64,000 nucleotides of DNA from Alteromonas salexigens (lineage in GTDB: Bacteria; Pseudomonadota; Gammaproteobacteria; Enterobacterales; Alteromonadaceae), in assembly GCF_025628895.1 (NCBI RefSeq), contig NZ_JAOTJC010000004.1:424388-488387 (forward strand), written 5' to 3'. The notes under the pieces were generated by a model that saw only the letters and a program-made list of their open reading frames with translations, was not told the origin of the DNA and ran no database searches. The number at the start of each line of letters is the position of its first letter. Position 1 is the stretch's first letter. Made by a program: the position numbers and the translations under genes. Below are positions 6,189 through 61,537 of the stretch, piece by piece.

Positions 6189-7304
6189 CTAACTGTCTTG
6201 ACGGCTGGACAACAGCACCAGGTCATCCCGGTGCACCACGACCTCACTACTAGCATAGCCTAAGGTCTCACGAATTTGTTGTGACTTCATCCCCTGTATT
6301 TGGGTAAGTTCCATATCCGAAAACAAGCTAAGCCCTTTGGCAACGAGGGTGTCCTGACAATGAATTTCCACCGCATCACCGGGCCTGAATTGCCCCCGGA
6401 CCTGACAGATCCCGGAGGGGAGTAGCGAGGCCCCCCGCGTTACGAGCGCATCCCGGGCGCCTTCATCAACACTGATCACACCACGGGTGCGCAGGGTGTG
6501 GGTCAGCCATAAGCGCCGCGCATTCCCCCGCGGCTGAGTGGCATGAAACAAGGTGCCGGGAATGTTTCCTTCCAGCAGGGCATCGAATGTTTGCCCCCGC
6601 CGACCATTTACAATCAGTGTTTGAATTCCGCTGTGGGTGCATTTCTCTGCTGCTTCAATTTTGGTGCGCATGCCGCCGGTGCCGACGGTGCTGCCTGCGC
6701 CGCCTGCCCGCTGATAGACAGATTCATCAATGCGCGTGACCTCGGGGATCAGCGTGGCATCTGCATGTTTACGGGGGTCAGCAGTGTACAACCCGTCGAT
6801 ATCAGAGCAAATGATCAGGGTATCCGCCTCAGCAACCAGTGCGGTGTAGGCGGCCAGATTATCGTTATCTCCCACCTTCAGTTCGTTGACCGCCACCGTG
6901 TCATTTTCGTTCACCACCGGTAACGCGCCGTGTTTTAACAGCTCGCGCAGCGTATTTTTTATATTCACATAGCGGGTACGGTCATGGAGGTCGTCGGCGG
7001 TGAGCAGCACCTGGGCACAGCGCGCATCGAAAAACCGTTGCCAGTTAGCCATCATCTGGGTCTGCCCAATAGCCGCCATGGCCTGTTTTTCGGCAATAGA
7101 AGGGGGGTGGGTCAGGGGAACACTGCGGCGGCCTGCCGCTACACTTCCTGACGACACCACTATCACTTCTTTGCCGGCCTCCCGGCTGGCAGTAATAAAA
7201 CGTGCAAGGGGCAGTAAAAAGCGCGCTTCACACGCGTTACCTTGCGGCGCAATCAGGGCGCTGCCTACTTTAAGGACGGCACGTTGCCAGTGGAATGAAC
7301 TCAT
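6189..7304 (-). CDS. proB: Glutamate 5-kinase with C-terminal PUA domain
   Basis: 371 aa from ATG 7304 (MSSFHWQRAVLKVGSAL). The amino-acid-kinase domain occupies about 1-255, with VVSSGSVAAGR, NENDTVAVNELKVGDNDNL and a GTGGMRTKIEAA segment. A PUA domain fills the C-terminus (VISVDEGARDAL onward). The enzyme phosphorylates glutamate, is the first committed step to proline, and is normally feedback-inhibited by proline. No strong Shine-Dalgarno precedes 7304. An alternative ATG at 7340 is equally poor, and a small inverted repeat (7325-7343) lies between them in the leader. Confidence 0.95.
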   Translation of the reverse strand: MSSFHWQRAVLKVGSALIAPQGNACEARFLLPLARFITASREAGKEVIVVSSGSVAAGRRSVPLTHPPSIAEKQAMAAIGQTQMMANWQRFFDARCAQVLLTADDLHDRTRYVNIKNTLRELLKHGALPVVNENDTVAVNELKVGDNDNLAAYTALVAEADTLIICSDIDGLYTADPRKHADATLIPEVTRIDESVYQRAGGAGSTVGTGGMRTKIEAAEKCTHSGIQTLIVNGRRGQTFDALLEGNIPGTLFHATQPRGNARRLWLTHTLRTRGVISVDEGARDALVTRGASLLPSGICQVRGQFRPGDAVEIHCQDTLVAKGLSLFSDMELTQIQGMKSQQIRETLGYASSEVVVHRDDLVLLSSRQDS

Positions 7305-58229: not shown

Positions 58230-58745
58230 CTAGCGCTTGTAATCGTCTATATCGATAGCATCAAGGCCATCTAACGGATCATCGTCGTCCTCTTCCGCAT
58301 CATCGTAATCGGTGATGCCAAGCAATTCACAGACGACGTGGTGTCTGGCCATCTTCTCATCCACATAGGCCTGTTCAGCCTTGCTGATAGCCTGGTCGTC
58401 ATCCAGTTTGTCCAGTAGCGCAGCCAGTTTAGTATCTGCTTCCAGCGCGGCTAACTCCTGCTCAGGGGTGGCGTACTTTGGCGCTTTAGGTTGCTTAGCC
58501 GGTGCACTTGCCGTAGGCGGGGTTAAATCTATTGGCTTTTTACTGCCTACCCGGGGATCTTTCGCCTGTTTTGACTGGCTATGGCCAGACGACGATTGTT
58601 CGACATTGTGGCGATTTCCGGCTGGTTTACCCTTATGCTTCTTGGGCTTTTGTGCAGAGGCTGGTTTTGGTTTGCCAGGCTTGCGGTCGGGATCTTTGCG
58701 AACGCCGATCAGACCAACTTTGCGCGATTTTTTGCTTCGAGCCAT
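58230..58745 (-). CDS. yihI: YihI, GTPase-activating protein of Der
   Basis: 171 aa. A very basic, low-complexity N-terminal half (SKKSRKVGLIGVRK, K/P/S-rich, about 1-90) is followed by an acidic C-terminal half (about 95-171, ending with a DDAEEDDDD-type tract). This bipartite charge is characteristic. YihI stimulates the GTPase of Der (EngA) and so modulates 50S assembly. Confidence 0.9.
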   Translation of the reverse strand: MARSKKSRKVGLIGVRKDPDRKPGKPKPASAQKPKKHKGKPAGNRHNVEQSSSGHSQSKQAKDPRVGSKKPIDLTPPTASAPAKQPKAPKYATPEQELAALEADTKLAALLDKLDDDQAISKAEQAYVDEKMARHHVVCELLGITDYDDAEEDDDDPLDGLDAIDIDDYKR

Positions 58746-58802
58746 AACATCCTTCGGATAGGTTGATAAATGAAAATCTTACTGCGTTATTATAACGCGG
58801 AT

Positions 58803-59447
58803 TCAGCCATGCTTCTGCAACAAAACCACATCTTTATCAACAAAGGTGGCATGAAAGCCATAGCGTGCGGCAATAAATTCGAATGTAGCCGTGGAATAAA
58901 ATGCTACATGGGTGGGGTCGTTCTTATAATGCCAGTGCGCAAAGCGTGTGGCACTGATCACCCGTTTGGTCATTATAACCAATATGCCTGCGGGGGTGAG
59001 ACAGTCTGTAAGTATGCGGAGTTCCCGGGCAGGGTTGTGAAAATGCTCAATGGCTTCGGTACAGGTTATAAAGTCATAGTGGTGGCTAAGTACCGAGGGC
59101 TGGGCATGAAAAATAGGATCGTACACCGACATGGTCATGCCGGCGTCACTGAGCATTTCTGCCAACACAGGCGCGGGGCCACAGCCAAAATCTAATCCAC
59201 GGGCAGGGGGCGTGAGCTTATCTAACAAGGGGGTTGTAACCCGGCTTAAAAACTTTCGGTAGCCCGGATCATCAGAGGCGTTTTCGTGCAGCTGATACTC
59301 TGCCGTTTCCTGCTTAAGTGAGGGCAGGCTGTCAGGGTGGACAAATACCAGTTCGCAGCGATTGCACTGAAAGTAATGGCGGCGCTTGTCCTGATGGTAG
59401 TGTTGGGTGTGGATGTGTTGGCACAACGGGCAGGGAAGCTGAGACAT
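58803..59447 (-). CDS. Class I SAM-dependent methyltransferase with N-terminal zinc ribbon
   Basis: 214 aa from ATG 59447; the frame extends to 59471 but that part is inside the terminator region. The zinc ribbon CPLCQHIH ... CNRC is followed by the methyltransferase motif LDFGCGPAPVLAEML and a post-I region CTEAIEHF, the UbiG/UbiE-like pattern. The target is unknown; the zinc ribbon suggests a specific protein or RNA target. Separate from yihI by 57 bp. Confidence 0.85.
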   Translation of the reverse strand: MSQLPCPLCQHIHTQHYHQDKRRHYFQCNRCELVFVHPDSLPSLKQETAEYQLHENASDDPGYRKFLSRVTTPLLDKLTPPARGLDFGCGPAPVLAEMLSDAGMTMSVYDPIFHAQPSVLSHHYDFITCTEAIEHFHNPARELRILTDCLTPAGILVIMTKRVISATRFAHWHYKNDPTHVAFYSTATFEFIAARYGFHATFVDKDVVLLQKHG

Positions 59448-59474
59448 ACGCTGAGAATTACAGAGAACCAAAAA

Positions 59475-59505
59475 AGAAAAAGGTGATGGCCTGAACCATC
59501 ACCTT
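59475..59505 (-). terminator. Intrinsic terminator on the minus strand in a gene-free interval
   Basis: On the minus strand AAGGTGATGG pairs exactly with CCATCACCTT around TTCAGG and is followed by TTTTTCTTTTTT. It ends a transcript coming from the 59510-59790 region, which holds no evident normal gene. Confidence 0.93.
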
Positions 59506-59707
59506 ACATTATTGAGTGTCAGATGACACCTCTCCCGTTTTTGCACCTCTGTGTGCAACTGGCTTCCTTTCGGTGCTCCCCTTTTTGCTTTTTTTAGCAG
59601 AGCCGACGTTTGTTGTTTTAGGTCTTCCTGACGCTTTATTGTCGTAACCAAGCCTGTTTATTATTGTTTTTCAGACTGGGTAGTTTCAGTTTGGATTACT
59701 GAAACTA
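59475..59707 (-). ncRNA. Candidate structured small RNA (or start-less small ORF)
   Basis: On the minus strand, TTGTAT (59736-59741) and TATTCT (59714-59719) with a 16-bp spacer predict a start near 59707. Exactly there lies a 10-bp perfect stem (TAGTTTCAGT/ACTGAAACTA, 59681-59707). Two further hairpins (59541-59558; 59516-59529) precede the terminator at 59475-59505. That gives an RNA of about 230 nt with four stem-loops and four GGA triplets. In one frame 59509-59670 is open for about 50 codons with protein-like, Lys-rich content (AKKSKKGSTERKPVAHRG), but it has no ATG, GTG or TTG near its 5' end. The 340-bp interval holds nothing else. Confidence 0.55.
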
Positions 59708-59713
59708 GGCAGT

Positions 59714-59741
59714 AGAATACAGCAAAATTTTAAAAATACAA
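59714..59741 (-). promoter_or_regulatory. Candidate promoter for the small RNA
   Basis: Minus-strand TTGTAT at 59736-59741, 16-bp A/T-rich spacer, TATTCT at 59714-59719. The first stem-loop of the predicted RNA starts 7 bp downstream. Confidence 0.55.
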
Positions 59742-59787
59742 CTTTTTTACTAACAAAATATTAACAGAGTTGTCATTAAAGTGTCAC

Positions 59788-60411
59788 TTAGTGCAAGCCG
59801 GCCACATAATTTGACAGGATTTCAATGTCTTCGTCGGTCAGCTTCGAGGCAATGTCACGCATCATGCCATTCATGTCGTTGTGACGGGTACCTGAGCGGA
59901 ACGCTTTCAGTTGCGCTTCGGTATATGCAGCATGCTGACCACTGATGTCCGGGAAGCCTGCCAGTCCCATACCATTACCCTGCGGACCATGACACGCGAT
60001 GCAGGCAGTGATACCACGCTCTTCGTCGCCACCCTGATAAAGCGCGCGGCCAGGCTCTACAAATTCCTCAGGGGTTTCGCCCGGGGTCATTTCCTGGCTG
60101 GCAAAATAGGCTGCCAAATCTTGCATATCCTGAAGTGACAGGGGCGCTGCCATGCCGTTCATTACTGCGTTGTTACGCCCTTCTTCGCCACCCGTTTCAG
60201 CTGCAAGTTTAAACTCCTGCAGTTGCTTGACTAAATAATCAGGGTGCTGATCGGCAATCTTAGGGTTCATTTCAATCATGCTGTTACCATCTGGGCCATG
60301 GCATGCTGCGCAAACTGCAGACTTCGCTTTTCCTGCCTCTGCGTCACCCTCAGCAACAGCTGTGGCGGACAAACCCAAAGACATACAGACCAACAAACAG
60401 AGTTTTTTCAT
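59788..60411 (-). CDS. Di-heme cytochrome c4
   Basis: 207 aa from ATG 60411 with a signal peptide ending ATAVA-E. Two heme c sites, CAACH and CIACH, lie in two similar halves, each with a distal Met-rich segment (NAVMNGMAAPL; NDMNGMMRDI) supplying the sixth ligand. It is a periplasmic electron carrier towards cytochrome oxidases. Transcribed divergently from engB across a 172-bp region, and followed by the candidate small RNA region. Confidence 0.93.
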   Translation of the reverse strand: MKKLCLLVCMSLGLSATAVAEGDAEAGKAKSAVCAACHGPDGNSMIEMNPKIADQHPDYLVKQLQEFKLAAETGGEEGRNNAVMNGMAAPLSLQDMQDLAAYFASQEMTPGETPEEFVEPGRALYQGGDEERGITACIACHGPQGNGMGLAGFPDISGQHAAYTEAQLKAFRSGTRHNDMNGMMRDIASKLTDEDIEILSNYVAGLH

Positions 60412-60583
60412 AATCAATCTCTTAAAAGGAACCAACGGCTAGCGTGATATACGTGATATCATGCGTATTTTACACATTTACTGCGCCAGAAAAACCTATT
60501 CCATGATAAAACTATGGTTTTACACCTTTTTATCACAGAACAGGTGTTCATAGATCTAGACAAAAGGTAGACACAGCAAGGCC

Positions 60584-61183
60584 ATGACATATTTTACCAA
60601 CGCCAAGTTTCAAATGAGTGCACCGGATATCAGCCACTTGCATCAGGACGATGGTATCGAGGTGGCATTCGCTGGCCGCTCGAATGCGGGAAAATCCAGC
60701 GCGCTCAATACCCTAACCCGACAAAAGAACCTCGCCCGCACCAGTAAAACGCCCGGACGCACCCAAATGATCAACGTGTTCGAGTTAGATGAACAACGTC
60801 GTCTGGTTGATTTGCCGGGGTACGGCTTTGCTCAGGTGCCGCTGGCTATGAAGAAAAAGTGGCAGAAATCACTGGGTGAGTACCTGCAAAAACGGAAAAC
60901 ATTGCAAGGCCTGGTCGTATTGATGGATATTCGCCACCCCTTCAAAGATTTGGATCAGGAGCTTATACACTGGGCGGTTAGCGCAAACTTACCAGTACTG
61001 GCGTTGTTGACCAAGTCTGACAAGCTTAAGGCCGGCAAACGCAAAGCCCAGCTGCTGATGGCACGGGAAGCGGCTCTGGCATTCTGTGGAGATGTCACGG
61101 TGCATACGTTTTCGTCGCTGAACCGGCAGGGGCTGCCCGAACTGGAACAGGTGCTGTCCACCTGGCTGCAGCTAGATAAATAA
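60584..61183 (+). CDS. engB: Ribosome-biogenesis GTP-binding protein EngB (YihA)
   Basis: 199 aa TRAFAC-class GTPase. G1 GRSNAGKSS near 31-39, the TPGRTQMI switch, G3 DLPGYGFA, G4 TKSDKLK and a C-terminal FSSLNRQGL. Needed for 50S maturation. The engB-spf-polA arrangement with convergent engB and polA is that of E. coli. AAGG precedes the start. Confidence 0.96.
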
Positions 61184-61195
61184 GCCTGGTACAAA

Positions 61196-61223
61196 TAAAA
61201 ATGCCCCATCAGGTGATGGGGCA
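61196..61223 (-). terminator. Second minus-strand terminator downstream of Spot 42
   Basis: TGCCCCATCA (61202-61211) pairs exactly with TGATGGGGCA (61214-61223). On the minus strand it is followed by TTTTTATTT. It lies 130 bp beyond the Spot 42 terminator and 13 bp after the engB stop. It may be a backup, or it may end an unannotated transcript. On the plus strand there is no T-run. Confidence 0.85.
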
Positions 61224-61353
61224 AAAAGGACTGAGAGAAAACACATAAACCGTAACTAAGAGCCCGCTGCCGGCAATTAGTTCCATCAAATCTGCACTTT
61301 TCTTCTAAACGGGCACACATAGCCTGCCTGCTACTAACACCGAATTTAAGACA

Positions 61354-61425
61354 TAAAAAAACCCCGGCAAATTGCCGGGGTTAAAGCAAAGGTTTGAAAA
61401 CAGCTTTCTCACCTCTGTACCCTAC
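61354..61425 (-). ncRNA. spf: Spot 42-like small regulatory RNA
   Basis: On the minus strand the RNA begins GTAGGGTACAGAGGTGAG, matching the 5' end of E. coli Spot 42 over its first 15 bases from memory. Next comes a stem of AGGTGAGAAA with the later TTTTCAAACCT, then a terminator stem AACCCCGGC/GCCGGGGTT and seven T. Length is about 72 nt, clearly shorter than the 109-nt enterobacterial RNA. Location between polA and engB is the diagnostic synteny. Spot 42 is an Hfq-dependent regulator of carbon metabolism genes. Confidence 0.9.
61355..61382 (-). terminator. Terminator of Spot 42
   Basis: AACCCCGGC (61360-61368) and GCCGGGGTT (61374-61382) form the stem; on the minus strand it is followed by a run of seven T. 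Confidence 0.94.
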
Positions 61426-61432
61426 GCGTGCT

Positions 61433-61460
61433 AGGGTAACGTAGCGCAAAAAAAAGGCAA
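61433..61460 (-). promoter_or_regulatory. Spot 42 promoter (predicted)
   Basis: Minus-strand TTGCCT (61455-61460), 16-bp spacer with a T-run, TACCCT (61433-61438), and the RNA 5' end at 61425. An inverted repeat TAGGGT/ACCCTA (61419-61424 with 61432-61437) overlaps the -10 and start. No clear CRP half-sites are seen upstream. Confidence 0.6.
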
Positions 61461-61537
61461 GAAAAAATTGTAATTAAATTACCAAAAAGAGGCAATGGCG
61501 CCACTTTTTGGTGCAGTTACTGTAATGAAATTACCTT

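Follow-up and report, generated by a model that had tools for sequence, protein, structure and literature searches.

We found that a structured non-coding RNA of Alteromonas salexigens sits where csrC sits in E. coli and is oriented as csrC is, with cytochrome and methyltransferase genes inserted. Most probably this RNA is a reduced member of the Csr family at the csrC locus. We give a probability of about 0.6 to the reading that the occupant of the csrC locus is a Csr-family small RNA that descends, together with enterobacterial CsrC, from the same gene, and that it is now a low-valency CsrA antagonist. The analysis was of a 64,000-nucleotide stretch of contig NZ_JAOTJC010000004.1 (the window), and coordinates are positions within it. 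The genes of the locus are:

61538 to the end of the window, minus strand: polA (from locus context)
60584..61183, plus strand: engB/yihA (TIGR03598 over cut-off)
59788..60411, minus strand: cytochrome c gene, of c4 type by the name given in the first-pass annotation (PF00034, two stretches)
58803..59447, minus strand: methyltransferase gene (PF13489 over cut-off)
58230..58745, minus strand: yihI (NF003560 and PF04220 over cut-off)

The RNA gene is flanked by the cytochrome and methyltransferase genes, so that the order in the window is engB (plus), c4, RNA, methyltransferase and yihI (all minus), with a minus-strand DUF2489 gene after yihI. The order in E. coli K-12 is polA, spf, yihA (minus), csrC (plus) and yihI (plus), and the accessible text of a Salmonella study (PMC2515195) places csrC between yihA and yihI, oriented relative to both as in E. 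coli. Like csrC, the window RNA lies between engB/yihA and yihI, on the opposite strand to the former and the same strand as the latter. It is this agreement with E. coli in locus and strand that carries the step of descent from csrC. CsrC of E. coli, Salmonella and Yersinia (RF00084, RF02767) is alike in locus, strand and length (~245 nt), in having several small hairpins and an intrinsic terminator, and in matching the covariance model described below. By contrast, CsrC has 13–17 GGA motifs and the window RNA 4, no match is left between the bodies of the two RNAs when the terminator is taken out, and the c4 and methyltransferase genes intervene at the window locus, unlike at the csrC locus. 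The gap between polA and engB (61184–61537) contained no Spot 42 match at threshold; weak Spot 42 matches were seen at loci L144–L146 of family f15 and at a Lacimicrobium locus (L062).

The RNA gene and its elements, all on the minus strand, are:

59751..59766, minus strand: direct repeat TGTTA-N6-TGTTA just upstream of the -35-like element, a possible regulator site (from match count)
59736..59741, minus strand: -35-like TTGTAT (from sequence; pair conserved)
59714..59719, minus strand: -10-like TATTCT, 16 nt from the -35-like TTGTAT (from sequence; pair conserved)
59470..59707, minus strand: small RNA gene, ~235 nt, the CsrC-locus RNA (start predicted from the promoter)
59681..59707, minus strand: 5' hairpin of 10 bp, TAGTTTCAGT/ACTGAAACTA (from sequence and fold; partly conserved)
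59622..59632, minus strand: hairpin 1, GUC-AGGAA-GAC, loop with GGA (two-sided changes in 2 of 3 pairs)
59575..59603, minus strand: helix 2, GCUCU/GGAGC (two-sided changes in 5 of 5 pairs)
59595-59581, minus strand: A-rich (ARN)n loop of helix 2 ((ARN)4-AAG in 40 of 42 sequences)
59542..59557, minus strand: hairpin 3, UGCAC/GUGCA (two-sided changes in 4 of 4 counted pairs)
59531..59538, minus strand: conserved block ACGGGAGA (CGGGAGA invariant in 23 loci found by whole-RNA similarity)
59516..59529, minus strand: hairpin 4, GUGUC-AUCU-GACAC (all cells paired; it hardly varies and so gives little covariation evidence)
59470..59505, minus strand: intrinsic terminator, an 11-pair stem (59505-59480) and then a T-run (from terminator scan and covariation)

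The first-pass annotation had proposed a small RNA delimited by a promoter-like pair and a strong terminator, and both elements are present. A TTG-N16-18-TGTA pair lies upstream of the RNA at 58 of 68 related loci, compared with 5% of shuffled sequences, and nine of the ten loci that miss it are Glaciecola or Ningiella types. The window pair was absent from the 5 sites returned by a simple sigma-70 scan of positions 58500–61000 (2.8 expected). The terminator stem is followed by the T-run as described, and the number of terminator-like sites in the same interval (4, compared with 2.6 expected) is not above chance. As judged from the sequence, the RNA would be transcribed in A. salexigens from its own promoter, as a free-standing, terminator-ended RNA behind cytochrome c4. 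The TGTTA-N6-TGTTA pattern has 2 matches in the window, compared with 0.14 expected, and 1 of 100 shuffles had as many; TGTTAA of the upstream repeat is invariant in 23 aligned loci, and the repeat is partly kept across Alteromonas types. We take the repeat at 59751–59766 to resemble an ArcA box.

We conclude that the window locus is a structured non-coding RNA, on the basis of its conservation, of compensatory changes in its pairs, and of the behavior of the one competing reading frame. The 232-nt stretch 59706–59475 folds at -66.7 kcal/mol, compared with -46.6 (sd 4.5) for dinucleotide shuffles (z -4.5; 0 of 200 shuffles as low). In an alignment of 42 non-redundant sequences, a five-helix structure, which was set by hand and drawn from the window sequence, had 94.0% of its cells paired, with two-sided changes in 17 of 26 pairs, a level reached by 0 of 500 shuffles. 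With the terminator left out and hairpin 3 realigned, 97.8% of cells paired and 11 of the 17 pairs showed two-sided changes, a count that none of 500 shuffles reached; the terminator stem itself had two-sided changes in 7 of 9 pairs. Sliding the helix partners by 1–3 columns reduced pairing to 31–53%, a comparison in which drawing the structure from the window favors it over the slid versions. The covariance check in relatives that had been set beforehand thus came out in favor of a structured small RNA, with the stems kept and compensatory changes present, and the two further stems noted at the outset, TGCAC/GTGCA and GTGTC/GACAC, are hairpins 3 and 4. The perfect 10-bp stem noted at the predicted start (59707–59681) is also there; its conservation is partial, a first helix of at least 6 bp being present in 22 of 42 sequences of Alteromonas type, 4 of 16 of Aliiglaciecola type and 5 of 10 of Glaciecola type (14–20% in shuffles). 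The hairpin 1 loop contains GGA in 37 of 42 sequences, including the window, and runs of at least five ARN units occur in 41 of 42, compared with 11% of shuffles. Among 23 aligned loci, a 50-aa reading frame at 59499–59651 is open in the window alone, and a small protein encoded there was rejected on that basis.

We mapped the distribution of the RNA at several levels of relatedness. Besides the genome of origin, a DNA search recovered it from 22 of 23 genomes of the same genus, and from none of 16 genomes that belong to other families of the order; at the sole same-genus miss (G009) the RNA was recovered by the covariance model. A degenerate 24-base pattern identified 65 loci, mostly in Alteromonas, Aestuariibacter, Aliiglaciecola, Bowmanella, Glaciecola, Lacimicrobium and Salinimonas; ACGGGAGA and hairpin 4 are fixed by construction in these loci. 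The expected setting, between cytochrome c4 and a methyltransferase, was borne out in its upstream half, the cytochrome match ending 203–369 nt upstream of the motif in 65 of 65 loci, but only in part downstream, an adjoining methyltransferase being found in 46 of 65. A covariance model trained on 42 sequences, all Alteromonadaceae RNAs (model R1), matched 170 of 246 genomes of the family at E <= 0.001.

Across the order, R1 matched 96 of 295 genomes at E <= 0.1: 21 in family f1, 20 in f6, which we take to be Shewanellaceae, 4 in f15, 14 in f18 and 37 in others. f18 is Enterobacteriaceae-like, since Rfam Spot 42 and CsrC are both found at its loci. The loci inspected were 15 of the 20 from f6, all 4 from f15, all 14 from f18 and 22 of the 37 from other families. 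All 15 f6 loci lie downstream of c4, with yihI in range in 14, and all 4 f15 loci are surrounded by polA, engB, c4, the methyltransferase and yihI. Among 20 fetched weak f1 matches, yihI is in range for 17, c4 and engB accompany 2 others, and 1 lies at a contig end without neighbors; c4 is out of range at 12 of the 19 with expected neighbors. In f18, the match lies between engB and yihI in 13 of 14 genomes, and 9 of these 13 loci score as Rfam CsrC or Yersinia CsrC above gathering; another has CsrC at 46 bits (cut-off 61), and three have no CsrC above threshold. One of the 22 loci from other families (L149, f16) is upstream of yihI. The other 21 matches (f2, f7, f8, f9, f10, f11, f16, f21, f27) lack the expected neighbors and were discounted as chance hits or hits to the terminator.

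We also searched with a model from which the terminator had been removed (model R2). R2 matched all 15 f6 loci and all 20 weak f1 loci in the same places (E up to 0.18), and found f6 genome-wide at E 4e-6 to 8e-3. Two of the four f15 loci matched at E 0.004 or better and the other two at 0.07 and 0.21, and f15 was not found genome-wide at E 0.1. Outside f1 and f6, R2 also gave a few matches (f2, f7, f8, f11, f18, f27). At E up to 1 it matched none of the 13 syntenic f18 loci, nor the f16 locus, nor E. coli csrC. R1 scored E. coli csrC at 26.3 bits, and the antisense terminator alone at 21.4 bits. Because R2 misses csrC and the terminator gives most of the R1 score, the connection with enterobacterial CsrC depends on locus, strand, GGA richness, terminator likeness and weak Rfam matches in f6, not on the body of the RNA. 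Those Rfam CsrC matches were seen at 4 of 8 scanned f6 loci (L128, E 0.0017; L129, 0.0026; L138, 0.021; L135, 0.077), that at L138 being on the terminator only. The f6 transcript (L128–L143) seems to be ~600 nt long, and ACATTTAAGATATAAGAATAAA is conserved early in the RNA in the loci whose sequences were read, except L138.

No Rfam family reached the gathering threshold in the window. Under permissive settings CsrC matched the window terminator alone, at 11.5 bits compared with a cut-off of 61, and the seven sub-threshold Rfam matches (E up to 10) were judged to be chance, except perhaps this one. Rfam CsrC (RF00084) was over its cut-off in 0 of 59 genomes of the family and gave nothing at E up to 1 when searched against the A. 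salexigens genome. No UvrY/GacA box-like site with up to 3 mismatches was found between the RNA and engB; the box at csrC is weakly symmetric even in E. coli, according to the available part of PMC4682653. A methyltransferase leader or riboswitch was rejected, as the gene was not found at 19 of 65 loci and no Rfam family reached threshold. At locus L029, positions 7014–7067 gave a sub-threshold match, probably by chance, to NsiR1 (34.7 bits; cut-off 39), a cyanobacterial RNA family.

We next consider GGA motifs. The window RNA has 4, compared with 3.7 in shuffles, and 116 of 200 dinucleotide shuffles have as many; classifying it as CsrB-type by GGA count alone was therefore rejected, 4 being the chance level. 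In the folding ensemble the 4 motifs have hairpin-loop probabilities of 0.09, 0, 0 and 0, a weak measure by which the averages for two genuine CsrC loci are only 0.19 and 0.25. Related RNAs vary widely. The f18 CsrC controls have 13–17 GGAs (9 loci), f6 RNAs 11–18 over a fixed 620 nt (15 loci), f15 RNAs 9–11 in 300 nt (4 loci) and RNAs of other f1 genera 7–13 in 300 nt (20 loci). Sequences of Aliiglaciecola, Bowmanella and Lacimicrobium types have 8–9 (mean 8.1, compared with 5.4 shuffled; 0 of 200; 16 sequences), Alteromonas types 3–7 (5.1, compared with 4.2; 0 of 200 for the sum; 42 sequences) and Glaciecola and Ningiella types 2–4 (2.7, compared with 2.9; 143 of 200; 10 sequences), in groups that were assigned by record title, whose related sequences are not independent and in which loci with no genus assignment are pooled with the Alteromonas types. 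In the stretch of up to 900 nt upstream of yihI, GGA density was enriched (p 0.03 or less) at 7 of 30 loci from the order: 4 of 4 in f18, 1 of 6 in f25, 1 of 2 in f10 and 1 of 1 in f5. No enrichment was seen there at 6 f8 loci (one too short to test), 5 in f21, 3 in f27, 2 in f11 and 1 in f6; at this f6 locus the methyltransferase gene intervenes, and the stretch searched may not extend as far as the RNA. The proposal that the four GGAs offer CsrA contacts therefore stands in part: the count is 4 and the locus is that of a Csr system, but the motifs are few and not enriched. A CsrA-sponge role for the window RNA is uncertain because it has only four GGAs, no more than chance.

The A. salexigens genome contains csrA, and outside the window it contains a separate CsrB-like RNA, L089 (G000:C10:94108-94433 and flanks), with 37 GGAs in 550 nt and an RF00018 match of E 8.5e-9 that is below the cut-off. 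CsrA titration in this organism need not, then, depend on the window RNA. L089 has a UvrY-box-like site with 2 mismatches ~170 nt upstream, not significantly frequent (17 of 200 shuffles reach the count), and it lies ~150 kb from csrA on the same contig. By locus-tag distance, its position would fit the Aln1 region of A. macleodii.

In the ancestral mode of a Csr RNA, GGA motifs would capture CsrA dimers and thereby keep CsrA away from the mRNAs that it regulates. The reduced RNA, ~235 nt long with 4 GGAs, would bind one or a few dimers, the contacts kept being hairpin 1 and ACGGGAGA, and the larger CsrB-like RNA would act alongside it. One reason to read the RNA as Csr-family is that its syntenic homologs in f6, f15, other f1 genera and the Aliiglaciecola types are GGA-rich. 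It is probably still a low-valency CsrA antagonist, since the hairpin 1 loop keeps its GGA and the genome has csrA; CsrA binding itself, like descent from CsrC and the direction of change in GGA number, is what we infer. That a modest number of sites can suffice is indicated by Pf3 of Pseudoalteromonas fuliginea, which with only 9 GGAs binds CsrA in EMSA (accessible text of PMC11882849).

The same data could reflect a change of function. An RNA descended from csrC might have given up CsrA titration and now work with Hfq by base pairing, or with another protein, a reading that we consider possible but doubtful. An ARN tract followed by a U-rich terminator is the rule for Hfq contact. By sequence, the (ARN)n loop and U-rich end of the window RNA would suit Hfq, with the ACGGGAGA region as a pairing seed. 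The near-universal (ARN)4-AAG loop and long ARN runs are consistent with this, as are the separate CsrB-like RNA with 37 GGAs and the chance level of GGAs in the window and the Glaciecola types while the core structure is under selection. Arguing against it are the GGA kept in the hairpin 1 loop and the behavior of Salmonella CsrC, which was not Hfq-enriched (63 compared with 64 cDNAs, in the available portion of PMC2515195). More specifically, and tentatively, csrC of the Alteromonas–Glaciecola group may have been converted from a CsrA sponge to another kind of regulator, with titration left to the large CsrB-like RNA; its GGA sites would have decayed to chance, and selection would have kept the covarying core, the ARN loop and the ACGGGAGA-hairpin module.

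The absence of a covariance-model match between the RNA body and f18 CsrC or E. coli csrC would also be expected if an unrelated small RNA had arisen at, or moved into, the csrC locus and replaced csrC. We regard this as improbable, as matches to the body were obtained at the f6 loci (15 of 15) and the weak f1 loci (20 of 20), whose RNAs have the locus and GGA richness in common. Least probable is that there is no separate gene, and that the sequence belongs to the c4 mRNA as its 3' end or to the methyltransferase gene as a 5' leader with an attenuator. The RNA is indeed on the same strand as both genes, no same-strand terminator-like site lies between c4 and the RNA in the window, and the T-run ends only 22 nt before the methyltransferase ATG. 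However, the promoter pair is conserved at most related loci, the methyltransferase is missing from 19 of 65 loci and c4 is out of range at many weak f1 loci, a hairpin and T-run directly follow c4 in the 6 f6 loci whose sequences were read, and no Rfam leader family was found. A reduced CsrC-locus RNA of the Csr family remains our preferred reading.

Csr-type RNAs have been described in related bacteria. Aln1a–c of Alteromonas macleodii Te101 belong to the same or a near genus and differ from the window RNA in being rich in A(N)GGA motifs and in lying between Te101_04650 and Te101_04655 (accessible text of PMC5864184). Pf1, Pf2 and Pf3 of P. fuliginea have 25, 21 and 9 GGAs (open portions of PMC11882849 and PMC9927453). 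Pf2 and Pf3 have been expressed in an E. coli K-12 strain without csrB and csrC and assayed through glycogen. CsrB1 and CsrB2 of Shewanella oneidensis have many AGGA/ARGGA motifs and differ in lying at SO_1615–SO_1617 with UvrY boxes; a third candidate, CsrC, lies between mutM and SO_4727 and is not UvrY-dependent (available text of PMC3171408). In the open main texts searched, we found no report of the window RNA in Alteromonas or relatives, and neither Alteromonas nor Shewanella is named in the main text of a paper that predicts CsrA-binding RNAs (PMC5568370). The RNA may be among the 127 chromosomal small RNAs counted in A. macleodii Te101 (accessible text of PMC5864184). The description of the RNA as new accordingly holds insofar as no Rfam family reached threshold and no report was found, but not for its locus, which is already known as that of csrC.

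Csr RNAs usually lack sequence conservation and are hard to find, as stated in the available text of PMC11882849. Here, a single RNA can be followed by its locus and covariation through several genera and into a second family, and Rfam misses it. Its CsrA-type sites range from 2–4 to 13 within one family, a natural series for asking what minimum of GGA sites is enough for a Csr RNA and whether its function can change. If true, conversion would offer a traceable example of an RNA that titrates a protein exchanging that partner for another, in marine bacteria in which Csr control has been linked to copiotrophic growth (accessible text of PMC5864184).
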